Shown here piece after piece: positions 29,497 through 62,714 of a stretch of 64,000 nt of DNA. Source of the stretch: Anisus vortex (lineage: Eukaryota; Mollusca; Gastropoda; Planorbidae); assembly GCA_949126835.1 (NCBI GenBank), contig OX421497.1:2286271-2350270 (forward strand), in the 5' to 3' direction. The first letter of the stretch is position 1, and each line of letters opens with the position of its first letter. The notes under the pieces were generated by a model, which worked only from the letters and a program-made list of their open reading frames with translations, was not told where the DNA came from and did not search any database. A program made the position numbers and the translations under genes.

Positions 29497-29502
29497 TTTA
29501 TT
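29497..29502 (-). other. Candidate polyadenylation signal of ApeC gene
   Basis: AATAAA on the minus strand about 75 nt after the stop codon at 29577. Confidence 0.5.
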
Positions 29503-29576: not shown

Positions 29577-32500
29577 TCAATTCTCTCTTCCTAAGTTGAC
29601 CGTCAAAGGTTCATAATAGCACAAAGTTATGTTAACATTGTTAACTCGTCCGTCTGGGTGAGGAAATGAGAGCTTGTCACGGTTATTTGAATTCTCACTG
29701 TCGATATTGACGTATTCCTCCGTTGAAGTCATTCCAATCACATCCTGGCAAATGCCGTTGAAACGGTAGAGATAGAAAGGTGCAAAAAATGGCAGTTTAA
29801 TGGGTTGTAAAGCACTTGCATCACTCCGGCAGCAAAAACTCAAAGCGTTGTCCATCAGAAACTCCGGTAAAATTCCACCCCAGCCTCTCAAGTTTCCGGT
29901 ATCCTCGTCGTCAATAACTATTGATCCATTAGAAAAGCCATCTGGGCAGTTATATTTTCTATTGATACAATACGATCCTTTCGGCCATGGCCTTTCTCTG
30001 TCATTTATTTCGTCTTTTACACAAAAAGAAATATTCATAAAATGTTGGGAATTATTCAATAATTTTACAGGAAGGGACAAATGGCTATTTTCACTGTATG
30101 AGTCTTCGTTTAAATCTGAAGATTCAGTGTGAAATTTGTAAAAACCTTCCATCCATGTCTGGGTAGGATGCAATGGACAACCAGCGGACGGTTTAAGTAC
30201 AGCAAAGGTTCCTTGCGGCCATTGATGGACAGAGTCATCCAAACTAGAGTAAATCATAGTAGGAATATGGCTTAAAGCTGTCATAATGTCTTTACTGTAA
30301 TTTAACAAGCTGTTTTCTCTTATTTGAAGCTTTGACTCTAGATACACTATTTTCTTCTCCAAGTAACGAGTTTTATAATAGTGAAACATAGAAATTAAAT
30401 GTAATGCTCGAAGGGTACTCATTTTAACTTTGCGGAGCTGATCTGTCATATTTTTAAATATGATTAAGGTATTGGCGTCTTCAACAACCTTTTGGTCTTC
30501 GGCGTTTAAACTCTGCTGTATTTCTCTGACTTTTGTCATAATGGATTCGAAGTCGCTTTGGAATTCATCAAGATTATTTGCCCCGCTCGGGTCAGGTGTA
30601 ATATACTCTGTTGTAAATTCTGTTGTAAGTACATCAATGGAGCGTTTTACTCTGACACTCTTGTAAATGTCTTTGTTTTGTCGGAATTCGTCATTGGGTA
30701 GGTTTACGGGTTCTTCCTTTTCCATGGAATTATCTTTCGGTGTTGTCCTTTCGTGCTGTGGACGTTTCATGGGGACTTTCCTCTGTGGATTTGCTGCATC
30801 CAAGTTGTCAACACCTGCCTTTTTACTACCGGTGTTGTTCACTGCGTCTCTATTAGAATTGATCTGGGCAGGTGTTGCAATTGTGAAGTTACTTATTTTG
30901 AAGTGTGGTTCCATTCTTTTGACTTGACTTATATGTTGATGCAGATCGGTCTAAAAATATATTAATACATACCTTAAACATAGTAGCTAATAATTAAAAA
31001 GAAAGATAAATAGATAGTTTTTATTTACAAAAAGGTAGAGATTTATATAGCTAAAGAAAATTGGCAAAAGACAGTAGGACAATCAGAACAGAAGACAGAC
31101 GGAAATACAGGCAGAAAGGTAAAATAGACGTATAAATTGATGTAAAGATAGACTGATACATATCAAGATAGATAAATAAATAGTTAGTGAAATAGATAGA
31201 TATATAAATATAGAGCAAGACAGATAGAATTATAGATGTACAGATACTTAGTCTGTAATTGGTAAGCCAAATAGAAATGTTTACTTTACATACTTTCTTT
31301 TTCAAAAAGGCGTCACATCGAAAATGTTCAAATATACTGGTGTCCGCCAAATCCCAAGTTATCTTAAGCTGTGATCCGCTCTGGCCATTGTCAATAACAC
31401 TTCCTTCAGCTTGGACGATTCTTGGGTCATTCAGACGTACGCGAGCTGGATTCGTCCTGAAAATCTCAGCCATGGTTGTCCAATGACTCTGTGGAAGCAC
31501 GATTATGTTAAGGTGGATTAATCAATAAATGGTTGTAAATTAATGAAAAATGTGTCGTAGTGTGATCATTAGTTTTACAATAATGTGGTTGTAGCATGTA
31601 TACAATTTGAGAAACAGACTACAACTGATCATTTAATTTATGTACTGAAATGTTTAGTCCTACTACAACGACGCCAGTGAGTGAATTGTATTTTCATTCA
31701 CGAAGGTCATATAAGAGGTTGTTGTCAAAGTAGCCATTCTGGAGTCAGCATTGTGTTAGAGTTGTTGGTGAGTTATGCTAGATTCACGATAGAGAGAAGT
31801 TGCTCTGCACTGTATGAACATGACAACTTAAAATCGTTCAACTTCGACAATATTTTATGAAGAGATTGTTTCTCACTTATATTTCAAGCTATTGTATTAT
31901 CATAACACAATGCAGCATACTATTTTACTTATTACATCTGTGTGTATTTTAGAATAAACGATTTGCAACCTGTATGGTTACATATTACATTTCATATCAA
32001 ATTGGCCTACTTAATTTTCCTATTTTTTTTTTTATATTTCTATATAGATCTATTTTGTTTCATTTATTCGCATTTTTTGTATTTACTGGTCTTGAAAAAC
32101 CTAGTGGTATTTTTTACATGACTTCTAGGTTTTTAGTGTTGTTTTTTTAGTTGTTTCCCAAGGGGAAAAATAGTCCTATAATGTTCCTGGGCAAACCGTT
32201 TTTTATTTAAATACCTTAAATCAGGGTTCGGGAACCTTTTTGTCTTAGAGAGCCATGGATACCACATATTTTTAAAGTAATTCTGTGAGAGCCATACATT
32301 ATGTTTAAAAAAAAAAAAATTCAAGTAAATGTGTGCATTTAATTTGTGTAATTTCAACACTAAAAGTACAATAATTATGTCTCTGAATTCTTCTGATGCT
32401 GAGCTGAAGTAGACTTTAGCTCATTTGTAGAATGAAATATTGATATGCAATTAATATGCAGATCAAAAATTCTAAAAAAACATTTTCTTAATAATCGAAC

Positions 32501-35500
32501 AATTGTCTGCGATCCCGATGCAGCCATCAAAAGAGCCACATCTGGCTCGCGAGCCATGGGTTAACGACCCCTGCCTTAAATTGTCCTGATGAATATTCTT
32601 TATTTCCCTTTTTGTTTTAATACTTTTTGAAATATTTGATTTAAATTTCAATGAACATGTTTACTTTGTTTTATGGTTCATGATGGTGTTCTTGTGTCGT
32701 GCTTAAGGTATAGTGTTAGTGTTGTGTTTAGCTTTTTAAATAAATAGGTCTTAGATAGCTTTAGCCACAGACCAATATGGTCACGTTGGTTTCCCAAGGT
32801 TGCAGAGAGTAGGACCACCCATCTTCCTCCCCACCCCTTACATTAATATGTCTACAACTGGAGTTACCCAATCTGTGTGGTGCAAGCTAGTTATGTACGT
32901 TGTGTTTTTTTTTAGAAACAAAGAGAAAACAGACATATTGATGTACGCAAAATAATCTCTACGCCCCAATAAATAACTCTAATAATGCCATCGAAGCAAT
33001 TATTTCACAAATAATCTCTAAAACATAATTAAAAATAAATTATATACTATCCAGACAACTCTAAATACAATATATACACATATACCCTATCAAAATTTCT
33101 AAACAATATATCATGCTATACAGATACAACTCTAATTGTTAGTGTTCTCGTGGTCTCTACAAATTTGCCTGTGCATTCGGAAAACTTTCGGGAAAATCTA
33201 GTCTAGTACTTTCTACACCAAAACCTAAATAGGCCTAAGGCTCGCTAACTTTTAGCAAAGACTAGACTCTATAAAAAGATGGACCGCTAGGTCTATTTTA
33301 AGAATTTATATGTTCTCTTTTTTTTCCGTGCGCAACCTATTGCAAGTTTCCACTGTGAGTTTGATTTTAATCTTAATTTTCCATTCTAAAAATAATAGTG
33401 ATGCTATGGAGTAATTAAATAATATATAGGTAGTAACTATATTAATAATTAAAAAGTCGAAATAAAACCCATTTTTGGATATTAAGAAAACCTATATCGG
33501 AAGTAGAGATAGTCAAGTGACTGTCCATGCGGTCGGCAGTCTTTTCTCATAACTCACAAGGAACGCCGGCATTATAATTAGACTCAGGAAAAATAAATAA
33601 AATTGTGTATTATGTTGATACTATAAAGCTATATTTGTTCATTGGATGTGAAGTGTCAACTGTTAATGAATTGTTATTAAATAATATGCTGCAACAAGTC
33701 GTTCTTTTATTATTTACAAGTTTGGAATTTATATTGTGGTGATGTCGTCTATTTTGATGTTCAAATCAATCAAATAATTCAGCTACTGCAACTCAAATAC
33801 TCTGAAAAGACTGGTAGTAATGTTTGATAGTCCAATAATAATAATAGGACATCAACAGGTTTGGTGGCAGCTAACGGAGAGAGAAGCTGAAGGATATAAT
33901 ATTATGTTCAAATTCGAAACTTTTTGAACTTTTTGAAGACGTACTATAAACCACATGGAAAATTATGTGAGTACCAGTTTTTGAACAAAACTGAAGCCTG
34001 AGTCGTTTATTTCAAATACATATACTATTTATCTGATTGAGCACTATAATAGCTCTAAGAAAATATAACGTTTGTCCACCGATGACAAATATTTCATCAT
34101 TGGAAAATTCGATACATAAAATCGAAAAAAAAGTGACTGTACATAGGTCATTGTTTGCAACCGGAAAAAGTTTCGTTCCCACATGTTATCAACAAGGAAC
34201 CTTAACTATATATATATGTTCAAGTCCGATGTTCAAATCCGATGTGACACAACCATGTGTTGAATTTTATGTAGCCTACATAACCATATGTTCAAATCCG
34301 ATGTGACACGACCAGGTGTTGAAATCTGATGTGTTGAAGTCCGATGTGCTTATCGGAAGATAAATAAATAACATTAAATAACTTTAAATATAATTAATAT
34401 TTAATCTGTATACCAAAGACTTTGACATTAATTTTAATTAATGGTATACATTTTTTTCTTGTTTTAATTCTAAAATTGGATTATACCATACTGAAGTGGA
34501 AACTTGAAGCAACTCAACTTGATACAGTGTGAACATTCATTGGATTATTAAATAATTAATTAAGTTTCTTCTGGATTTCTACTCTGGATTTACATTGCAA
34601 TAATTTCATACAGTGAATGTGTTTTCATTTGGATTATTAAGTAATCTTTAATTTAATCATATTTTTTACATTCATTAGTATGAGTTATATATATATATAT
34701 GTATTATTTATGTATAAAGCGGGCTCTGGTTGGCGGGAGTTTCTAAAATAAATCTCTTGTCTATTCTTATTCTGTCTATAATCTATTTCTGTTTCTTAAA
34801 AGAGATTGATTAGAAATGATTCTTTGTTAGTGTTATTTCTGTTAGTTGTCTTGACTTTGTTTGTTATTGTTAAGAATTATTAAAGTAAAATTACTATAGT
34901 CTTGTCAATGTTATACATGTTGTGATTCTTTGTCAAAAATTCCTCTATCATTTGTGGTCCAAGCAGCATTAGTGTATTGTGATTGTGTTTTTTCTATTGT
35001 TACTTGATATAATTTTTTTGTTCTGTATTTTTTGAGATATCATTAATATGCATTGGTTAGTTTTTGCTCTCTGAGTATAATGGTCTATGGTAAGAACATT
35101 AACAATAATAAGTTCACCAGGATAATAATAATATGAATATTCAGATTCATAACTATATGATTTAAGTAGTGCCCAAATACATGTAACTACAATTAACAAA
35201 ATAATAATTGATATCTAATACATGTAACTACAAATGTACAAAATATTCACAATATAACAGGTAAAATAACCTAAATAAAAATAATATTGTGCTTTGCAGT
35301 GCTACTGTAATAATATTATCTAGAATTTACATTGCTATTAATTATAGTAAAATTATTGTGTATTGGCATTAATGAAAATGTACTTCCAGTAATCACAATG
35401 AAAATGTACTTCCAATACTGATAATAATTACATCCATTTCAATTGCTCATAAGAATAATATCATAGTGGCTTATGATAACATTAATCTAATTCTTATATG

Positions 35501-38500
35501 CCATCCTCAATAATAATAATAATATTATATATGTGCTACCATTGGTAATAATAAGATTGTACATTGCTTTGCGGAAAATAATTGTGCAACCTATATAGTA
35601 ATAATAAGTCATAATAGCAAAAAGTGACTTGCACTTGCTTTCAACTCTACTATAAAATTGCTAATAATAATAAAATAAACAAGCCATAATTGAAAATGTG
35701 TCTTGGCATAGCCAATAATTGTTGACATTCTAGCATTTTGCATTCTGAATTATAAACATTTTACTACAGCATAGGATTCAAAAGTTGCTGTGATAATATA
35801 TAACTGCTCATTCTGTATTTAATAAATATTGTCATTCAGTAATATAAAAATGCTCATTCAGTAGTTAATAAATATTGCCATTCAGTATAGGAATAAAACA
35901 TTGCTGTACTATAAAATAGTGCATTATAATAATTGTACTGTACTATAATATAATAAATCTTGACATTCATAATAAATAATAATGGAGTCAAAGGTTCAAT
36001 TACTCTATGATGAGGCTAAATTGTTGGCAAAAGAATATGGTATTACTGATAAGAAGGAATATCAGGAATTTGTTGAAAATAAAGTTAAACAATTGAAAAA
36101 AGAATTAGCAGATAAGGAAAGAGATGAACGAGCAGAATTAAGGGCTCATGAAATTAAACAAAAAGAACTTGATAATGAAATTAAACAAAAACAACTAGAA
36201 CTAGAATTAAAAGAAAAAGAATTACAATTGAATAAAGACAAAGAAAAAGAGTTGAGAGAAACTCAGTTGAAAGAAACACAACTAAAATTAGCTCATGAAT
36301 TGGAGTTGGCTAAATTACAAAATACTAAAGTTGAGCAAACATATAATGAAAAATCAAAACATAGTGTAAGATTTAAAATGCCTCCTTTTGATGGAAAAGA
36401 GAAAATTGTTGATTTTCTAAATTTATTTGAAGCAACATGTAAAGGATATGGGATTCCCATTTCAGAATATTACATTCACCTTATTCCACAATTGAAAGAT
36501 AAGGGTAGGGAAGCACTATCACATATTGATAAAGAAATAACTGATTATGCCATTATCAAAGAACAGTTAATTAAATTCTTTATCCACTCTGAGGATTATT
36601 ACAGACAAAAGTTTCATAACTTTATCTTAACAGACAAGATAGAACCGAGAGCTTTTGTGTCTGAAGTGAAAACATTTTTACTTACCTGGTTAGACTTAGT
36701 AAAAATAGATACCAAAAATCCTAATGAGATTATAGAAATCATGGTTGTTGATAAAGTATTAGAACAAGCTTCTAAACCATTGTTTACTCACATTATGGAA
36801 AGAAAAGTTAAGACAGTTGAAAATTTGATAGATGCAATCTCAAATTTTAAGGATAGTCATCCTAATGTAGAACTGACTAAACAAAATCAAACAGTAAATA
36901 CAATTCAACATAGAAGAAGGAGCTATTCACCTCCTAGGTCTAGACATAATCAATTTGGCAATAGAAAAAAATTTGGTAATCAACCAAAATCTAATAATTA
37001 TAGATGTATTTTTTGCAATGGTACAAACCATTCATCAGAATATTGTTACAGAAATAACAATGCAAGAGGTAGAAATTTCAATCCAAACTTCAATAGATCA
37101 AATGTTGATCATAGAGGTTTTTCAAATCAAAATTTTTCTAATTTTGATAATAGAAACTTTCCAAATCAGAATTTTTCAAATTTTGGAAACAGAAATATGC
37201 CAAATCAGAATTTTTCTAATAACAATGTGCCAAATCAAAATTTTGCAAGACAAGATTTTCCTAATACTCAAAACAGACCTCAATCAAATTTCCAAAATAG
37301 AAGAAATAGAGGAAAACTTAACAATTCCACATCTCAATCAAATAATGTCATATTTGAAAACAGGGGTCAATTAATACTTTTTCCTGCTTATGTGGAAGGA
37401 AAGACCACATACTGTCTAAGAGACACCGGAAGTAGTATAATATGCATAGATGAAAGTATCATTCCAAATCAGAAACCCACCAATATAATAAGAGTGGATA
37501 CAATAAAACTTGGAAATGGTTCCACTGTAAATTGTCCTGTCACTATAATAGACATTGATTGTCCTTGGCTTACAGGAAAAGCAGAGGCAGCCATAATGAA
37601 AAACTGTGTTGCACCTTTAATTATTGGTAATTCTTTCAATGTCAAACATGATAATAGTTTTGACATTTTTCAAAAATGGATGAATGAAAAATCCAATGAC
37701 TTGAATTTGAAACCTGTTCTATTGCAAAATGAAAAGTTAGTAGATTTACCAGAACAAGAATTTTACCCTGCTCTACAAACTTTTAATTTCTTACAAACCA
37801 TAGGAAAGTCAGAAAATAATATTCTCTATGAGACACCTAATATTGACTTATCCATAAATAATGAAAAGGATAATCCTATTCCCAAATGGAATGGAACAGA
37901 AAAACTAGAACAGTATGTAAGCAAATTTGAAAGTCAATGTGAAATAAACAATGTACCAAAAGAATTACATGCTATTTCACTATGTAGACATTTAGAAGGT
38001 CATAAACAAATATTCAACATTGCTAAAAATCAAATATCTGATTTTACTAAAATGAAGAGTGAGATATTATCATATATTGATAGTCCTCATAAAAAGGAAA
38101 CCCAAATGAAAAAAACAGAAAATATCAGTTTAATAAACATGCCTTTTGATGAGCTAACTCTAAAACAAGAACAGAAAGAAGATCCATACATAATTAAAAT
38201 GGTATCAGAAATTGAAAAAGGTCAGGTTAAAAATAAAAACATTGAAATAATAAATGGAATTCTCTGTAGAAAGGACACTAAATTAGATATAACTCAAATA
38301 GTTATACCTAAAACATTAACTGTCAAAGTGATGCAAATTTCGCATAACAATGCATTGTCAGGTCATTTGAGTAGCAAGAAAACAGTTTGTAAACTCAAAA
38401 AGAATTTCTGGTGGCCTAAAATGGAAAAAGATTTGAAAACATTTATTAAAAGCTGTGATACCTGTCTTAGACATAATAAAAAAAATTCTAAACATAAGGC

Positions 38501-41500
38501 TCCAATACAAATGACCGATACCATAAACAAACCTTTTTACAAGATAGCAGTTGATATAATAGGGCCCATGAAGCAGACTAAAACTACCAAAGCAAAGTTT
38601 GCCTTAACCATTATAGACATGGGAAGTAGATGGATAGAGGTAGTTCCATTAAGGGAAATAACTGCAGAAAGGGTCTGTAATGCTCTTTTACCTATCTTTT
38701 GTCGTTTCGGTTTTCCAAGGTTCATATTGAGTGACAATGGAACTCAATTCAAATCAAGCCTTACTCAAGCTTTTGCACAAATGTTAAAAATCACTCAAAT
38801 TTTTAGTTCTATATACCATCCTGAATCAAATGGTATGATAGAAAGGGCTAATCAAACAATAAAACAAATGATAACAAAAGTGTGTGAAGACCATCCATTT
38901 GAATGGGATGATTACCTTCCAGCTATTTTGTTTGCTTATAGACAATCGGTTCATGAAAGCACAGGTTTTTCACCATTTGAATTAGTGCTTGGCAAAAATC
39001 CCAATGGACCATTGGATAATTTCAAATCAGAATTATTAGCACTTAAAGAAAAAAAAATGTCTCCATTTGACTTAGTCAATAAAACTGAAAAACATATGAA
39101 AACAGCTTATGAATTTGCTGTACAAAAAAATGAAGAAATCAAATCTAAAACTTTAATCAGAGAAAATATTCATAAGAACATGAGAAAACTAGAAGTTGGT
39201 AATAAAGTACTTGTTTATTTGCCAATTGGCAGTGGCAATACTATAGAATGGAAAGGACCTTTTGAAATAATATTTAAGCTATCTGATGTATTTTACAAGG
39301 TTAACATTAATAACAAAGAAAAAATTGTTCATTTAAACAATTTGAGAACTTATGAAGAAAACAAAGTAATTGAAAATAAATCAGAAGATGATTTGATAAT
39401 TGAAAATAAATCAGAAGATGATATCAATAAATCAGAACATGCAAAAATGACATTAAATAAATGTTGTTCAATATTAAAAAGCTATAACAGAGAATATAAA
39501 AGCAAAATAATTGAAATTGAAAATAAACCAGACAATGATATTAACAAATCTGAACACAGAGAAATAACATTGAGAAAATGTTGTGAAATTCTAATGAATT
39601 TTAGCAGAGAACTCAGGTATAATCAATAAAATTATACATAGGAATAAATAAATTTATGAATGAGATATGATATTTTCAGTAACAGGTATAATGACATGAT
39701 AACATTTTTTTTCTTTTGTAAAGAACAAATATGTAAATATGGACACTGGTATAAAATAATCTAATTGATGAAAATAATGATTATCAGTTGGAAATTTTTT
39801 TTTATGTAGCCTCTGAACAGTTTGGTAAGACTGTTAAGCACATAAATTTTGTGGCCTCTGAACAGTGAATCTGTTATGCCATATGTTAACATTAATATGC
39901 CTATGTAAGTCTTTAAAAAAGCATTAGAGGAATTGAAATAAGAATGATATAATAATGAAATGCCTATGTAAGACTCTAAAGTCAGAGCATTAGATGATAA
40001 TATTGTATTGTATTCATGTAAGACTAAAGATAGCATTGAAGCCAATAAATAACTGATACATATAAGACTCACAGGAAGATGAGCAGTGTAATATAATTAT
40101 ATAATTGAAGGGAAGACTTGAATAATTTGTGTAATATTTTATTGTAAACTAAGATTAAAGATAATCATGTTACATTGTAAGTAATGTTATTGAGAATATC
40201 AATCAATAATAAATAATAATCAATAAGAATCAATAATCAATAAGAATCAATAAGAATATAAATTCTAAATGAATATTGTGAAGATATAGATTCATAATCA
40301 CCATTATGAAAATGACAATTGAAAAAAACTGACATTAGTATTATATTAATCTTAGTGTATAAACTAATAAATGTTGTATAAAAAAATTTTCATGGAATCC
40401 TTATAGATTTTGTGAGATAAAGATAATGGATAATCTCGACAGCCTTGATGAGTATTTAGCATAACAATTATCGATACACATCATTGATATCCAATAGTTT
40501 ATCTCAGTATTACTGAAGTTGATTAGACAATACCAAAAGATAGTTGTCTATGACTAATTGTCATATTAACATTAGACATTATTCTTTGTGTCTTTTGTTT
40601 ATATTTCTGCCTATGAATTTTTTTTTGTTGTTTGTACATATATTAAATGAATTTTTTCTCTATGTATTATTAAATGAATGATTACATGCATTAATTAAGA
40701 TTAAGATAATTTTTTTTCATTATTGTAAACATTTTTCGTATCAAAAATAATAATAAATTATTATTTTTTCTCTGTGGTTGGGGGGTATGCTATGGAGTAA
40801 TTAAATAATATATAGGTAGTAACTATATTAATAATTAAAAAGTCGAAATAAAACCCATTTTTGGATATTAAGAAAACCTATATCGGAAGTAGAGATAGTC
40901 AAGTGACTGTCCATGCGGTCGGCAGTCTTTTCTCATAACTCACAAGGAACGCCGGCATTATAATTAGACTCAGGAAAAATAAATAAAATTGTGTATTATG
41001 TTGATACTATAAAGCTATATTTGTTCATTGGATGTGAAGTGTCAACTGTTAATGAATTGTTATTAAATAATATGCTGCAACAAGTCGTTCTTTTATTATT
41101 TACAAGTTTGGAATTTATATTGTGGTGATGTCGTCTATTTTGATGTTCAAATCAATCAAATAATTCAGCTACTGCAACTCAAATACTCTGAAAAGACTGG
41201 TAGTAATGTTTGATAGTCCAATAATAATAATAGGACATCAACAAGTGAATTACTAAACCTGAAGTCTAGAGGACTTAGTGCGATCGAAAATTCCGAAACT
41301 GTGTTTCAAGTTATAAAATATCAGAAATATTAAAGCAAGCGGTCGATCTTATTACAATCTTTGCTTTTAGCCTCAATTGTCGCTGCGATGTTTAATTAAT
41401 AATTGATCCCTTTCAAACAAACTGCAATATTGTAAAAAGCAAATTCTATCCCAAACTATCTTTCAGGTCTATGTAGAATATGTCTTTGGGTATTTAGATT

Positions 41501-41927
41501 ATTTTTTTTTCCCTTATTAAAAAAAACAATAGGCTATGTTAAATAAAATATAGAGTCTATTTTTTGTTTTTCACTTAGCAAAAAAAAAAAAAAAAAAACA
41601 CTTTTACTCTCTAAAGTCTAGCCTACTCCATTTAAATGAGCGCGTATAAATAATAAGATAATTTAGTTAAAAAAACAACATAAAACAATTTTAGCAAAGA
41701 ATCAATACAGTGTTATAAAATAAGTAGATAAATACCTGATTTCTTTTTAAGATGACATATCCATCAATTTCATAAAGATTGTCTTGAGCTGTGTCTAGGC
41801 TCGTTTCTTGAAGACTGCATATAATGGAAGCCCCTTGCGTCGTACGACTAAATACAACCTGCAACTGCGGCAGTGCATGATACAGGGGTGTCACCAGACA
41901 CCACATTGCCAACTCCAACCACATCAT
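29577..41927 (-). CDS. Secreted VIgL-like/coiled-coil/ApeC-domain protein
   Basis: Three exons on the minus strand: 41927-41736 (64 codons), 31488-31294 (65) and 30950-29577 (457 plus stop), all phase 0 with GT-AG introns; 586 aa. Residues 1-20 form a signal peptide (LELAMWCLVTPLYHALP). Residues 30-129 are Ig-like, with C37 and C122 as the likely disulfide, the KRNQSHWTTMAEI stretch and FRCDAF, resembling the first Ig domain of snail FREP-type VIgL proteins. A basic, Pro-rich linker ends in RVKR at 229-232, a furin-type site. Residues 253-356 form a helical, coiled-coil segment. Residues 372-576 form an ApeC domain: two WPxG motifs, GCP, CPDGF, DDED, FCCRSD, CQDVIGM, LCYYE and eight cysteines. 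Amphioxus ApeC proteins bind bacterial peptidoglycan, so microbial recognition is plausible but inferred. Intron 1 carries the LTR element and a hAT element. Confidence 0.87.
32222..32573. mobile_element. Non-autonomous hAT element in ApeC gene intron
   Basis: A 352-bp element with ends CAGGGTTCGGGAACC and GGTTAACGACCCCTG and an exact 8-bp target duplication CCTTAAAT (32214-32221 and 32574-32581). Near the right end it has AGAGCCACATCTGGCTCGCG, a motif widespread in animal hAT elements. It is distinct from the CAGGGGTCGG family. Confidence 0.85.
33402..33857 (+). repeat. 5' LTR
   Basis: 456 bp, begins TGCTATGGAG and ends GGACATCAACA. It contains a TATA-like word (CTATAAAGC near 33620) and AATAAA-type words near 33590. 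It appears identical to the LTR at 40788-41243. Confidence 0.95.
33862..33879 (+). promoter_or_regulatory. Candidate primer-binding site
   Basis: TGGTGGCAGCTAACGG begins 4 nt after the 5' LTR. Starting with TGG (complement of tRNA CCA) at this spacing is the usual placement. The matching tRNA was not identified. Confidence 0.6.
34190..34350 (+). repeat. Short tandem repeat in element leader
   Basis: Repeats of GTTCAAATCCGATGTGACAC with variants, about five imperfect copies. The rest of the leader (33880-35981) is AT-rich, has many short upstream ATGs and no long ORF. Confidence 0.65.
35982..39629 (+). CDS. Gag-protease-integrase polyprotein without RT/RNase H
   Basis: 1215 aa, ATG start. 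Residues 1-120 are a charged, Lys/Glu-rich helix. Residues 131-290 are Gag-like (PPFDGKEKIVDFLNLFEATC). A basic Arg/Ser patch precedes a CCHC knuckle at 342-355 (CX2CX4HX4C), followed by Asn/Phe-rich repeats. The aspartic protease signature DTGSS is at 481-485. Residues 634-699 form a second Gag-like segment where RT and RNase H would stand. The integrase zinc domain is HX6H (788/795) with CX2C (825/828); the catalytic triad is D858, D918, E954 with exact D-35-E spacing; a GPF module is near 1092. The C-terminus has two similar 40-residue segments (NKSEH...KCC.IL). There is no frameshift or internal stop. A normal Gypsy polyprotein would carry about 500 more residues of RT/RNase H. Confidence 0.92.
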   Translation: MESKVQLLYDEAKLLAKEYGITDKKEYQEFVENKVKQLKKELADKERDERAELRAHEIKQKELDNEIKQKQLELELKEKELQLNKDKEKELRETQLKETQLKLAHELELAKLQNTKVEQTYNEKSKHSVRFKMPPFDGKEKIVDFLNLFEATCKGYGIPISEYYIHLIPQLKDKGREALSHIDKEITDYAIIKEQLIKFFIHSEDYYRQKFHNFILTDKIEPRAFVSEVKTFLLTWLDLVKIDTKNPNEIIEIMVVDKVLEQASKPLFTHIMERKVKTVENLIDAISNFKDSHPNVELTKQNQTVNTIQHRRRSYSPPRSRHNQFGNRKKFGNQPKSNNYRCIFCNGTNHSSEYCYRNNNARGRNFNPNFNRSNVDHRGFSNQNFSNFDNRNFPNQNFSNFGNRNMPNQNFSNNNVPNQNFARQDFPNTQNRPQSNFQNRRNRGKLNNSTSQSNNVIFENRGQLILFPAYVEGKTTYCLRDTGSSIICIDESIIPNQKPTNIIRVDTIKLGNGSTVNCPVTIIDIDCPWLTGKAEAAIMKNCVAPLIIGNSFNVKHDNSFDIFQKWMNEKSNDLNLKPVLLQNEKLVDLPEQEFYPALQTFNFLQTIGKSENNILYETPNIDLSINNEKDNPIPKWNGTEKLEQYVSKFESQCEINNVPKELHAISLCRHLEGHKQIFNIAKNQISDFTKMKSEILSYIDSPHKKETQMKKTENISLINMPFDELTLKQEQKEDPYIIKMVSEIEKGQVKNKNIEIINGILCRKDTKLDITQIVIPKTLTVKVMQISHNNALSGHLSSKKTVCKLKKNFWWPKMEKDLKTFIKSCDTCLRHNKKNSKHKAPIQMTDTINKPFYKIAVDIIGPMKQTKTTKAKFALTIIDMGSRWIEVVPLREITAERVCNALLPIFCRFGFPRFILSDNGTQFKSSLTQAFAQMLKITQIFSSIYHPESNGMIERANQTIKQMITKVCEDHPFEWDDYLPAILFAYRQSVHESTGFSPFELVLGKNPNGPLDNFKSELLALKEKKMSPFDLVNKTEKHMKTAYEFAVQKNEEIKSKTLIRENIHKNMRKLEVGNKVLVYLPIGSGNTIEWKGPFEIIFKLSDVFYKVNINNKEKIVHLNNLRTYEENKVIENKSEDDLIIENKSEDDINKSEHAKMTLNKCCSILKSYNREYKSKIIEIENKPDNDINKSEHREITLRKCCEILMNFSRELRYNQ
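39630..40773 (+). other. Non-coding 3' region of the LTR element
   Basis: AT-rich, with repeated AATCAATAA words near 40200-40260. No env-like ORF was seen. Confidence 0.6.
40774..40787 (+). promoter_or_regulatory. Polypurine tract
   Basis: GTGGTTGGGGGGTA directly precedes the 3' LTR, the expected position of the plus-strand primer. Confidence 0.65.
40788..41243 (+). repeat. 3' LTR
   Basis: 456 bp, TGCTATGGAG to GGACATCAACA, followed by AGTGA at 41244-41248. Read against the 5' LTR line by line, no difference was found. Confidence 0.95.
41579..41599 (+). repeat. Poly-A tract
   Basis: Homopolymer run in intron 1 of the ApeC gene; no adjoining retroposon was recognised. Confidence 0.8.
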
Positions 41928-45190: not shown

Positions 45191-48100
45191 TTAGATTTGT
45201 TTCTCTAAAAATAATTTCTTCTTTTTCCAGCCTTTATAGAACTTAAGGATCGCATGAAATAGACTCAGAACATCTGGCACTACAACCACCGCCATGATTA
45301 ACGTTACGAAAACGATACCAAAAAAGCCCACGGTCTGGGCCGAGGGCCTGTTGTCCACAGCACTGGTTCTGGCCATCACATAGGCGGACAGTTCCGTGTT
45401 GGACACGGTCAATTCTTTCTGGGTGGCCTTAATCTCTTGGAGTGCCTGCTGGAGAGCTTCCGTTGGATTTCTCTTGATAAACTTGCAAGAACATGGGCAC
45501 AGCTCGGGTATGTGGCTGCTAGAACAATTGTATTCGTTGGCAGAGAGAGTGTAGCCAGCGTGACAGGAGCAGGCATAAGAACCAGGTAAATTTATACAAA
45601 TCTGTTCGCACAGACTTTCGTTCTGACTGCATTCGTCAACGTCGTGACATGTTCTTTTGTCAGAGAGGTCAAGGACGTAGCCGGGTCTGCAGGAGCACGT
45701 GTAGCTTCCGTTTAAATGTGTGCAGTTGTGGTCGCACGGGGATGGGACCTGGTGACACGGATCGCTGACTATGCAGGACGTCATGTCGTCTAAGAGCGTG
45801 TAGCCTTTGAGACAAGTGCAGTTGAAACCTCCTTCCGTGTTGTTGCATAGCTGGGAACAGTTGTCCGTGGCGCATTCATCTATGTCAGTGCAGTTGTGGC
45901 CGTTGGATTCCAAATTGAAACCATCTCTGCAATAACAAACGTATGAGCCCAGGGAGTTATTGCAGTGATGCTCACACGGGCTTGGAGCATCGCTGCACTC
46001 ATCATTGTCCTCACATGTTTTGTTATCAGCTGCGAGAACAAAGCCAGGCTTACAGCTGCAATAAAAAGATCCGTTAACATTGTTACATGTATCCTGGCAG
46101 CTATGTAGCGATGTCGAGCATTCGTCAATATCAATGCAAGTAATATTGTCCACATCAAAGTAATATCCATTGAAACATCCACACTTGTAGGATCCGATAC
46201 TATTCGTACAGTTCTGACTACAGTTGTGTGTATTCTGCCCGCATTCGTCAATATCACTGCAGTTTTGAGTAGAGTTTGAAAACAGATATCCTTCCAGGCA
46301 ACTGCAGAAATAGGACCCAGGGGCATTGTTGCAAACTTGTTGGCAAAAACTCTTGTTCACGGCGCATTCATCAATATCGCGACATGTTGAGTTGTCAATG
46401 TCAAGATAAAAGCCGCTGTCGCAGCAGCGGTAGGTTTGGTTCACAGTGGGGCACAGGTGGTCGCACAGACCCGTGGGTCGGGAGCATTCGTTCGTGATAA
46501 AACTATTGTTTTGGGTGAAACACCCAGCGTGGCAGTAACAATATGGCCACACCGCGCCACTCTTGGCGCATATCTGGCTGCAGATCTGTCCCTCTGGGGA
46601 GCAGATATCCGTGTAGCCACAAGTAGCATTGTCATCGTTTAGAAAATATCCCGAATAACAGCTGCAATAGAATGTTCCATTTACATTGTTACAGTTTTGG
46701 CTACAATTGGCATTGTTCGTAGCACATTCATCGATGTCGTGGCATGTGACGTTATCACCAGAGATGTAGTAGCCAACAGAACAGGTGCATAGATACGAAC
46801 CGATGCTATTGTTGCAGTGTTGGCTACAGTTGTGGCTGTTCCCTTGACATTCATCTACGTCTACGCAGTTTTCATAATCATCTGACATCCTATATCCGCG
46901 GCCACAGTCACATGTGTACGAATCATTGACGAAGCTGCACATATGGTCACAGAGTCCAGTGGTTTCATTGCATTCTTCCACACTCAGGTATGTATCATTG
47001 CCTACTAGAACCTCACACCCAGCATAGCAGTTACACTGGACCGCCTGCCCGATGACGTTACTACACAGTGGAACACACAGCCCTGTGCTCGCTATGCATT
47101 CGTTCACATAGGAGCACGTTTTGTTATCTCCAGACAGAGTATAGCCGCTGAAACAGCTACAGTAATACGACCCGTTGGTGTTGTGGCAGTTTTGGGTGCA
47201 GCCGTGGGCTCCCAGGACGCATTCGTTAACATCATAGCATGTCTCATTGTCCGCGGCCAGGGTGTAGCCTCGGTCGCAGTCGCAGGTGTAGGACCCGTTC
47301 ACCACGTCGCAGGCGTGGTCGCAGAGTCCGGTGATGTTGGAACAATGGTTGACGTAAATGTAATTGTCGCTGCTGCTTCCGGCACTACAGCCCGCAAAGC
47401 AGCCGCATCGTTGAGTGCCGTTAGCATCATAGCATTGACGGATGCAAACCGCTGCGTTTCCGCTGCATTCGTCTATATACGTACAGTTGACCTTATCTGT
47501 TGCCAACAGATAGCCGTTGTAACAGCTGCAGTTATAGGAGCCGTAGGTATTTTGACAAATTTGTCCACAGTTGTGACTTTTGAGAAGACATTCGTCAGTA
47601 TCCACACACGTCTCATTATCTGAGCCCAGTGAGTATCCTGAGCGGCATTTACAGTTGTAAGATCCGTTGGCGGGATAACAGTTGTGGTCACAAAGGCCGG
47701 TAATTTCCGAGCAATCATTGATGTACAAGTACGTATTGCCGCTGTTCCCAGTTTCACAGCCTGCGTAGCAGTTGCAGAGAGAAGGATCGCTGCCGTCGTT
47801 GCATTCAGCAAGGCAGAACCCTGTACCTAACGTGCATATGTCATCGTATCGGCAGCTGGTACCATCCACGGCCAGGGTGTAGCCGCTGTAGCAGCTACAG
47901 ACGTACGAGCCCTCAGTGTTGTTACAGATTTGGCTGCAGATGCCCTTTGTTGTGGTGCACTCGTCGATGTCATGGCACGTTCTGTTGTCCGTCGTGTCAA
48001 GGGCGAATCCCGGTTTGCAGCTGCATTTGTAAGAGCCATCGGTATTTGTACAGTTGTGGCTGCACACAGACTTCTGCGTGTTGACACTGCATTCATCGAT

Positions 48101-49294
48101 GTCAACGCACGTGAGCGGGCTCCCCGCCAGTGCGTATCCGGGATAGCAGGAGCAGTTGTACCCTAGCAGATCATCATTGCAGATCTGGGAGCAGTTCGCC
48201 GCCCCCGTCTGACATTCGTTCACTGGCTTGCACAGAAATAAGTTCGTATCACTGCAATCGCTGTCAGCTAGATAAGCAGAATTGATCACATTGATCGTCG
48301 CAATTTGTATCTGAGCACAACAAGGGGTAGAGCCGCCGACATTTACACAGCTGGAATCGGGTTGTCCTGCTCCCCAAACATCATTAGCAAATGATTCGTT
48401 AGCCCAGGAGAACGTGTAACTTTGCGTATCACTTGGTTCCGCTTTCAGGTCAATCCAATAAGGCTCGCTGTTGAAGTTTACCAGTGCTCGCAGATAATCA
48501 TTGACCGCCCTGTAATCAGCGTTAGTACTGAACATAGCCAAGTCGGCTGATAAGCTGCCACAGCGGGACTTTGCCTCTGCGTTGCTTGCAGTGATCTGAG
48601 ATATCCAATAAAACTGATTGTTTGCAGTAAAGTTTTTGAAATCAGACGTAGTACTAGACCCAACCAGATTAATCCCTAGGATCGCCGTAGATAATTCTAA
48701 AACTTAAAGAAAAAGAAGAGAAAATTAATTAAACACAAGTTCATATACCAAATATTATCAATTTATATTATGTTGTTATATCAAATATTTTATTCTTTAA
48801 AAAAAAAACTCCACTTACAAAAATTACTTTTCTAGGCATAAAATGCTTATATTATGTATTTTAAGTGAAAACATGAATAAAGAAACACAAATTCAGAAAG
48901 GTTCATTACTAGCGAATATTCACAACTGACAAGAGTAACACTAATAGTTTAATCACTAAACCTAGAAACACTAGATGACAGAAGGGCAAAGAGTAAAGTA
49001 TTAAAGTAGATTGCCCAACTTGACAAAATAAAACGGTTTCTTGCTTTCTAAAAGAAAAGATCAAAATTTTGGTAGTTTTTAATCGTTTTTTTTTTTGTTG
49101 TTTTTTTTATTTTATTATTAATTTAAACGAGAATTAAACCATCAAGTCCAAAGCTACATTATTCTGTAACTTCTTTAACTTTTTTTAACTAGGTAATTAA
49201 AAGCAAAAACAAAACAAATTAGAAAAAAATAAATATTACAAAACTTACTCAGCCAAAGTGCGATAGAAATAGTTGGCCTCTGACCTGTGCTCAT
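45191..49294 (-). CDS. Membrane protein with C-type lectin-like domain and 22 EGF modules
   Basis: Two exons on the minus strand: 49294-49249 (ATG plus start of signal peptide, donor GTAAGT) and 48696-45191; 1183 aa. Signal peptide residues about 1-25 (PTISIALWL..LSTAILGINL). Residues 40-173 are a C-type lectin-like domain (FYWIS, WIDLK, W-GAGQPD, C..FLC); the QPD triplet resembles a galactose-type site. Residues 174 to about 1070 hold 22 EGF-like modules, most calcium-binding type (D-I-D-E-C start). Modules 4, 7, 10 and 14 are atypical, with CxCxAGC and no final cysteine. A CPCSC cluster, a short heptad helix, a transmembrane helix (about 1138-1160, GIVFVTLIMAVVVV) and a short Lys-rich cytoplasmic tail follow. 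Ligand and role are unknown; cell-surface adhesion or recognition is inferred. Almost the entire protein lies in one exon. Confidence 0.88.
48697..49248 (-). other. Intron of lectin/EGF gene
   Basis: GT donor at 49248 and pyrimidine-rich TTTAAGTTTTAG acceptor ending at 48697. AT-rich; no further exon seen inside. Confidence 0.75.
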
Positions 49295-60813: not shown

Positions 60814-60884
60814 ATGAAGACTTTTGAGTGCAATATATGCTATAGATCATATGAAGTGAAAGTTTAAAGAAAAAACATAAAAGA
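60814..60884 (+). pseudogene. Frameshifted extra N-terminal zinc finger
   Basis: ATG at 60814 opens MKTFECNICYRSYEVK and then a stop. The finger's second half (SLKKKHKRMH) continues in the frame of the main ORF up to the ATG at 60885. A small indel therefore seems to have split an original first finger and moved translation to the inner ATG. Confidence 0.6.
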
Positions 60885-62714
60885 ATGCATTCACAAGAAA
60901 CAACCTTTAAATGTTTGATGTGTAATGAGACCTATTTTACCTTAAATATTTTAGAATACCATTTGGTGAATCATACTGGTGAGTTTAAATATGGCCATTG
61001 TAGTGGTGAATTTTCTTGGAGTTTAAACTTAAAGGGACATCAAAGATGCCTTCTAGTGGAACCCCCCTTTCAATGTTTGATCTGTAATAAGAAATTTGTT
61101 GTCATGAAGAGCTTAATAAACCACTTGTGGAATCATACAGATGAAAAACCATATAAATGTAACATATGTAGCAAAGAATTTATCAGAAAAGGAGACTTAA
61201 AAATACACCAAAGAATACATTCTGGGTTTAAGCCATATAAATGTGACATTTGTTGTAAAGAGTTTTCTCGAAGTCATAACTTAAAACGTCACCAAACAAT
61301 ACATTCTGAGTTTAAGCCGTATATATGTGTCATATGTAGTAAAGAATTTTCTGACACCGGAAGCTATAAAAGACACCAAGAAATACATTCTGGATTAAAA
61401 CCATATAAATGTGACACATGTGGCAAAGGTTTTTCTCGACGAGGAAACTTAAAAGAACACAAAAAAATACATTCCGGATTAAAACCATATAAATGTGACA
61501 TATGTAGTAAAGAATTTTATCAAAGTGGAAACTTTAAGGAACACCAAAAAATACATTTTGGATTAAAGCCATGTAAATGTGCAATATGTAGTCAAGAATT
61601 TTCTTGCCGTGTAAGCTTGAAAGAACATCAAAGATGTCATGCAGTAGAAACCCTTTTTCATTGTTTGATCTGTAATAAGAAATATGATACGATGAGGAAT
61701 TTAAAATGCCACTTGTGGAATCATGCAGGTGAAAAAGCATATAAATGTAACATATGTAGTAAAGAGATTTCTAATAAAAGAAATTTAATACACCACGTAA
61801 GAATGCATTCTGGATTAAAACCGTATAAATGTAACATATGTGGTAAAGAATTTTATAAAGGTGGGGATTTAAAAAGACACCAAAGAATACATTCTGGATT
61901 GAAGCTGTATAAATGTGACATTTGTAGCAAAGAATTTTCTCAAAGTGGACAATTAAAGGAACACCAAAAAATACATTTTGGATTTAAGCTGTATAAATGT
62001 GACATATGTAGCAAAGAGTTTTTTCTAAGTGGACACTTAAAGGAACACAAAAAAATACATTCTGGATTAAAGCCATACAAATGTGATATATGTAGCAAAG
62101 AATTTTATCAAAGTGGAAATCTAAGGGAACACCAAAAAATACATTTTGTATTAAAGCCATGTAAATGTGCAATATGTTGTAGAGAATTTTCTTGCCGTGT
62201 AAGCTTGAAAGAACATCAAAGATGTCATGCAGCAGAAGCCCTTTTTCAGTGTTTGATCTGTAATAAGAAATATGCTGCCTTGAGGAATTTAAAATACCAC
62301 TTGTGGAATCATACAGATGGAAAAACATATAAAAGTGGCATGTGTAGCAAAGAGTTTTCTCAAAGTCAATCCTTAAAAATACACCAAAAAATATATTCTG
62401 ACATTAAACCTTATAAATGTGACATTTGTGGTAAGGAATTTTCTAAAAGTTCAAACTTAAAACAACACCTAAGAATACATTCAGTATTGAAGCCTTATAA
62501 ATGTGACATTTGTAGTAAAGAATTTAATGAAGGTGGGAATTTAAAAAGACACCAAAGAATACATTATGGAATAAAGCCATATAAATGTGACATATGTAGC
62601 AAAGAGTTTTCTCAAAGTGGACACTTAAAAAAACATCAAAGAACAATACATTCTATTAGTGAACCTTTTTTAGTACCGGTAACAAATTTTCTCAAATTGG
62701 AGACTGAAACTTAA
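60885..62714 (+). CDS. C2H2 zinc-finger protein, 21 fingers
   Basis: 609 aa in one exon, made almost entirely of 28-residue C2H2 fingers (YKCDICSKEF...LKxHQxIH). I count 21, of which 19 keep all four ligands. Finger 2 (YGHCSGEF) lacks the first cysteine and finger 18 (YKSGMC...HQKIY) has lost two ligands. Linkers are HSGLKPYKC-like rather than the common TGEKPYKC. A seven-finger period is visible: the pair CKCAIC..CHA followed by F-CLICNKK..HLWNH recurs as fingers 2-3, 9-10 and 16-17. No KRAB, SCAN, BTB or ZAD domain is present. Sequence-specific DNA binding in the nucleus is the expected role. The ATG lies in the tail of a further, frameshifted finger that begins at 60814. Confidence 0.85.
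   Translation: MHSQETTFKCLMCNETYFTLNILEYHLVNHTGEFKYGHCSGEFSWSLNLKGHQRCLLVEPPFQCLICNKKFVVMKSLINHLWNHTDEKPYKCNICSKEFIRKGDLKIHQRIHSGFKPYKCDICCKEFSRSHNLKRHQTIHSEFKPYICVICSKEFSDTGSYKRHQEIHSGLKPYKCDTCGKGFSRRGNLKEHKKIHSGLKPYKCDICSKEFYQSGNFKEHQKIHFGLKPCKCAICSQEFSCRVSLKEHQRCHAVETLFHCLICNKKYDTMRNLKCHLWNHAGEKAYKCNICSKEISNKRNLIHHVRMHSGLKPYKCNICGKEFYKGGDLKRHQRIHSGLKLYKCDICSKEFSQSGQLKEHQKIHFGFKLYKCDICSKEFFLSGHLKEHKKIHSGLKPYKCDICSKEFYQSGNLREHQKIHFVLKPCKCAICCREFSCRVSLKEHQRCHAAEALFQCLICNKKYAALRNLKYHLWNHTDGKTYKSGMCSKEFSQSQSLKIHQKIYSDIKPYKCDICGKEFSKSSNLKQHLRIHSVLKPYKCDICSKEFNEGGNLKRHQRIHYGIKPYKCDICSKEFSQSGHLKKHQRTIHSISEPFLVPVTNFLKLETET

Follow-up and report, generated by a model that had tools for sequence, protein, structure and literature searches.

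VIgL and ApeC proteins

FREPs and their kin are the much-studied, diversified defence proteins of schistosome-carrying snails. VIgL proteins are recognized by secretion, an immunoglobulin superfamily (IgSF) domain and a C terminus of the fibrinogen, C-type lectin or galectin type (PMC10875847), with coils of 150–320 amino acids in some FREPs (PMC7588048), and immunoglobulin (Ig) proteins with a C1q head (QREP) or an H-type lectin head (HREP) have also been named (PMC8878817). Among the ApeC-containing proteins (ACPs), short-form groups 1, 2 and 4 are described as having no discernible known domain besides ApeC, and BgACP1 of Biomphalaria glabrata (XP_013078768) was published in 2022 as a short-form member, its N-terminal part being termed a short middle region (PMC9585378). 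BgACP1 bound all seven microbes tested and agglutinated five of five without killing them, forms disulphide-linked multimers and prefers peptidoglycan of the Lys type; its affinity for the diaminopimelic acid (DAP) type and for peptidoglycan fragments was slight or absent (PMC9585378). Here we analyse a predicted gene in a 64,000-nucleotide stretch of the Anisus vortex genome (contig OX421497.1, positions 2,286,271 to 2,350,270; 'the window') that combines an Ig-like domain, a helical region and an ApeC domain, and which probably encodes a secreted, oligomeric, soluble pattern-recognition protein in which a FREP-related Ig and a helix are joined to an ApeC that binds bacterial cell wall.

The window gene and its product

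The gene lies on the minus strand, and its exons of 192, 195 and 1,374 bases are each a multiple of three and all in phase 0, with GT-AG borders at both introns and a spliced translation of 586 residues plus a stop. Exon 1 (41736..41927) holds the start codon, signal-peptide-like residues 1–20 and the first half of the Ig with C37, and ends at a GT donor after a phase-0 codon. Exon 2 (31294..31488) carries the second Ig half, ITWDLADTSIFEHFRC122, as placed by the family Ig model, and exon 3 (29577..30950) carries a linker, a long helix, ApeC and the stop codon, with a candidate polyadenylation signal AATAAA (29497..29502, same strand) about 75 bases further on. The exons appear to be joined in this order on the evidence of open reading frames (ORFs), phases and splice signals, and every coordinate of the three-exon, phase-0 gene proposed in an earlier, sequence-only reading holds, as do the positions it gave for the C37/C122 pair. 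Residues 1–18 are hydrophobic (mean hydropathy 1.06), and the predicted protein is likely secreted, as judged by hydropathy.

A Pfam scan of the window protein placed ApeC (PF16977, E 4.3e-40) at residues 373–575 (29613..30221, minus strand), covering the whole profile. The region contains the eight cysteines seen in ApeC-containing proteins (C387, 439, 457, 464, 502, 503, 530 and 573), as the sequence-only reading had described. No other family exceeded the cut-off in that scan, which returned neither MACPF nor a matrix domain; no Ig was over the cut-off either, the only weaker match being DUF3388 (E 0.038, below cut-off). Residues 1–129 nevertheless scored 33.5 bits on the Ig model of the protein's relatives, whereas none of 2,000 shuffles exceeded 11.2, and they keep the Ig cysteine pair and tryptophan of the family, so the Ig-like domain claimed earlier is borne out, though invisible to Pfam.

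Between the two domains, residues 142–263 (30549..30914, minus strand) form a linker that is likely disordered (predicted local distance difference test (pLDDT) <50), followed in the structure model by helices at residues 255–279 and 288–366 (30240..30575, minus strand; pLDDT about 50 for the first and 60–70 across most of the second), which may act as an oligomerizing coiled coil. Within the linker, residues 229–232 (30642-30653, minus strand) read RVKR, which we take to be the kind of motif cut by furin-like proteases. The long linker bearing it was not seen in 17 aligned Ig-ApeC relatives, and cleavage there might, speculatively, separate the Ig from the ApeC head.

A family of Ig-ApeC proteins in panpulmonate snails

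Searching 5.8 billion proteins with the full-length window protein yielded two relatives among 3,515 candidates, one of them from Physella acuta; judged by eye, each has an apparent signal sequence followed by Ig-like, helical and ApeC regions. A profile built on these two recovered 18 proteins among 7,995 scored. Species labels were attached to 11 of the 18: Physella (four), Lymnaea stagnalis and Candidula (two each), and Biomphalaria glabrata, Bulinus truncatus and Bradybaena (one each), all of them panpulmonate snails. The Ig-like half is present in every aligned relative except P0018, so the check proposed with the sequence-only reading, a search for proteins with both Ig and ApeC, finds 17 database proteins besides the window protein. 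C40, W108 and C121 (Physella numbering) are nearly invariant in the alignment. Pfam detected an Ig in none of four relatives scanned, and the Ig region of BgACP1 was predicted as an Ig fold in a structure model.

The same architecture recurs in the genome that contains the window (863 Mb, 159 contigs), where an ApeC profile search gave 11 matches: eight over the full profile, one over positions 47–208 and two short. Nine of these loci were examined for Ig, with support in eight. Five (L001, L002, L003, L004 and L008) are single open frames of 427–479 codons, each with Ig, helix and ApeC, which makes the architecture independent of the splicing inferred for the window gene; at L005, two Ig-like halves were visible by eye, with an Ig score of 9.7 bits that is no better than shuffles. 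The window gene, its paralogue L007/L041 and L046, a partial gene, share a phase-0 intron that divides the Ig at one common position, the upstream exon ending in Q and W being the third residue of the next exon, and by eye this phase-0 split is also present in L045. On a model built without these three genes, their Igs scored 34.4, 29.5 and 31.0 bits, respectively (best of 4,000 shuffles, 10.3).

These paralogues bear on whether the prediction wrongly joins two neighbouring genes, one contributing the Ig exons and the other the ApeC exon, an error that we consider very improbable. The joining was read from sequence alone, across a first intron of 10.2 kb, about 7.8 kb of which is retroelement; against an error of this kind, the same order runs uninterrupted in one frame at five loci of this genome and recurs in 17 database proteins, the phases fit, and the Ig intron falls at the same place in L041 and L046.

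By sequence, L002, a gene with a single ORF, is this genome's counterpart (orthologue) of BgACP1, the window gene being a divergent paralogue, and identity of an Ig-ApeC protein of the genome is 77% to the Biomphalaria protein and 65–68% to the Physella and Lymnaea proteins. In the ApeC tree, the branch leading to the window gene is long (1.09 changes per column; median 0.23). Together with the recent-looking insertion in intron 1, whose repeats are identical, and the lack of a close orthologue among the 5.8 billion proteins searched, this branch could mark a decaying or silent Ig-ApeC copy, damaged by the retroelement and without present function. That explanation is unlikely, however, because all three exons are open, the splice signals are intact, AATAAA is present, and no conserved residue is lost among the eight cysteines of ApeC or the cysteine pair and tryptophan of the Ig.

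L001–L004 and L008 are intronless across the domain region and stand beside split relatives, which suggests that the intronless Ig-coil-ApeC genes arose by retroposition; retroposition has been proposed for the single-exon FREP2 and FREP14 (PMC7588048). L007 and L046 sit in a run of fibrinogen-domain genes on contig C9, and CUB exons lie upstream of Ig-ApeC in L046 and, by eye, in L041. L041 (C9:18542333-18552332) and L046 (C9:18583141-18590140) are similar CUB, Ig and ApeC genes with no clear coil, and L046 shows an apparent reading-frame change inside ApeC.

BgACP1 is an Ig-ApeC protein

Primers printed for BgACP1 encode SFLVTIN and LCYYEERV, with the mature protein starting at residue 21 (PMC9585378). 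Read from its second methionine, our relative P0003 has 435 residues, SFLVTIN at residue 21 and LCYYEERV at its end; BgACP1 is therefore P0003 or a near-identical allele, its middle region corresponds to Ig plus helix, and the recombinant protein (residues 21–435) carried the Ig. The window protein shares with BgACP1 the order Ig, helix, ApeC, an ApeC 44% identical over 208 residues and an Ig part that fits the same profile, whereas BgACP1 lacks a long disordered linker and has one helix directly after the Ig in its structure model. With a profile-matched Ig in the window protein and a predicted Ig fold in BgACP1 itself, neither conforms to a short form that has ApeC as its only known domain.

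The proposal of an undescribed Ig-ApeC class is thus modified: a member has been in print since 2022, and what stands is that we found no mention of an Ig for it in the accessible text of that report (PMC9585378). No paper naming an Ig-ApeC class was found in the literature searched, which covers few subscription papers.

Relationship to FREPs

One of ten fibrinogen loci with long ORFs in this genome, L051, places a fibrinogen domain (E 2e-31) after an Ig in one ORF, in the manner of the single-exon FREPs with one IgSF domain that exist in B. glabrata (PMC7588048). Its Ig scored 52.2 bits on a 22-row Ig-ApeC model (positions 6–120 of 121), 55.9 bits as a 135-residue piece (none of 5,000 shuffles exceeding 12.0) and 50.0 bits on a 17-row model (best shuffle 11.3). 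For comparison, the highest score of any PDB chain on a 13-row Ig-ApeC profile was 14.9 bits. The other nine loci (L052–L060) have long frames that match the fibrinogen profile and start cysteine-rich and, by eye, PAN- or EGF-like, a different class of fibrinogen-domain protein.

Judged by Ig-ApeC family profiles rather than published IgSF profiles, the window protein has an IgSF domain of the VIgL kind. ApeC is the only head found in it, in place of fibrinogen, C-type lectin or galectin, which makes it VIgL-like with a new head rather than a FREP, CREP or GREP. It resembles FREPs in its FREP-related Ig, predicted helical interceding region and single C-terminal head, and differs in having ApeC instead of fibrinogen. 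CREP, GREP, QREP and HREP likewise combine Ig with an interchangeable recognition head; the likeness noted here is one of architecture, and no ApeC version was found in the accessible descriptions. Apextrin (MACPF plus ApeC) shares the C-terminal ApeC, whereas the window protein showed no MACPF in Pfam. The Ig-ApeC family looks like the FREP plan of Ig, coil and lectin head with an ApeC head, and the earlier proposal of a VIgL-like Ig, a coil and an ApeC head is supported by the family Ig match, the predicted Ig fold and the link to the FREP-like L051.

Several observations weigh against this interpretation. The window Ig scored only 4.8 bits against the L051 Ig directly, which makes the family profile the bridge between the window protein and FREPs, and the FREP comparison consists of one gene, in whose exon no signal peptide was visible. 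Forty of 150 listed fibrinogen loci were read; the nine other long-frame loci had no Ig, 30 further loci with 1.5-kb flanks had none above a reversed-sequence control, and the 8–10 kb upstream of ten of those 30 had none in frames of at least 30–35 codons. The window Ig is divergent (26% identity to the BgACP1 Ig over 69 residues), the protein has no close database orthologue, and its gene is known from genomic sequence. Finally, the BgACP1 assays used the complete, thioredoxin-tagged mature protein, so that its domains were assayed together (PMC9585378).

Proposed recognition role

We infer the domain roles in Ig-ApeC proteins; the demonstrated activities are those of BgACP1 (PMC9585378). In the window protein, ApeC would be the ligand-binding head for peptidoglycan and the helix would gather several chains, so that together they could cross-link bacteria, while the Ig might contact a snail partner (a haemocyte receptor or another VIgL) or provide a second ligand or binding face. 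Oyster CgACP1, which consists of no more than a signal peptide and ApeC, gave results like those of BgACP1 (PMC9585378); this agrees with ApeC doing the binding and shows that these activities do not require an Ig in the oyster protein. Because ACPs are also tied to embryogenesis and mucus-based adhesion (PMC9585378, PMC8361754), the window protein could instead be a matrix or developmental protein like sea urchin apextrin, its Ig serving adhesion. We regard this as improbable: the nearest tested member, BgACP1, binds and agglutinates microbes (PMC9585378), and no matrix domain turned up when the window protein was scanned with Pfam.

With BgACP1 both binding bacterial cell wall and carrying the same predicted Ig, ApeC is likely one more interchangeable microbe-binding head in snails. 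A wider model, to which we give even chances, is a modular panpulmonate platform in which a FREP-type cassette of Ig and coil takes exchangeable heads and ApeC is the peptidoglycan head; most of this snail's ApeC repertoire would then consist of Ig-ApeC genes, BgACP1 would be a VIgL-like protein with a known ligand, and the two CUB-bearing Ig-ApeC genes in the fibrinogen cluster would mark a site of head exchange. Searches that start from fibrinogen, C-type lectin or galectin (PMC10875847) would miss an ApeC-headed class. The binding data for BgACP1 make the role of the Ig directly askable, by comparing the whole protein with ApeC alone.

Other features of the window

Intron 1 contains a long terminal repeat (LTR) retroelement (33401..41243) on the plus strand, opposite to the gene, bounded by two identical 457-base repeats (33401-33857 and 40787-41243) and, by eye, flanked by an apparent 5-base AGTGA target duplication. 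One frame of 1,217 codons in it matches integrase domains and, weakly, a SCAN-like one; Pfam found no reverse transcriptase there. Upstream of the Ig-ApeC gene, a 1,170-codon frame on the minus strand (45191-48703) encodes 16–18 EGF-type repeats. Visual inspection suggests that this frame has a hydrophobic stretch towards its end and a C-type-lectin-like start, the latter not confirmed by Pfam. A 619-codon frame of C2H2 zinc fingers lies on the plus strand at 60855-62714.
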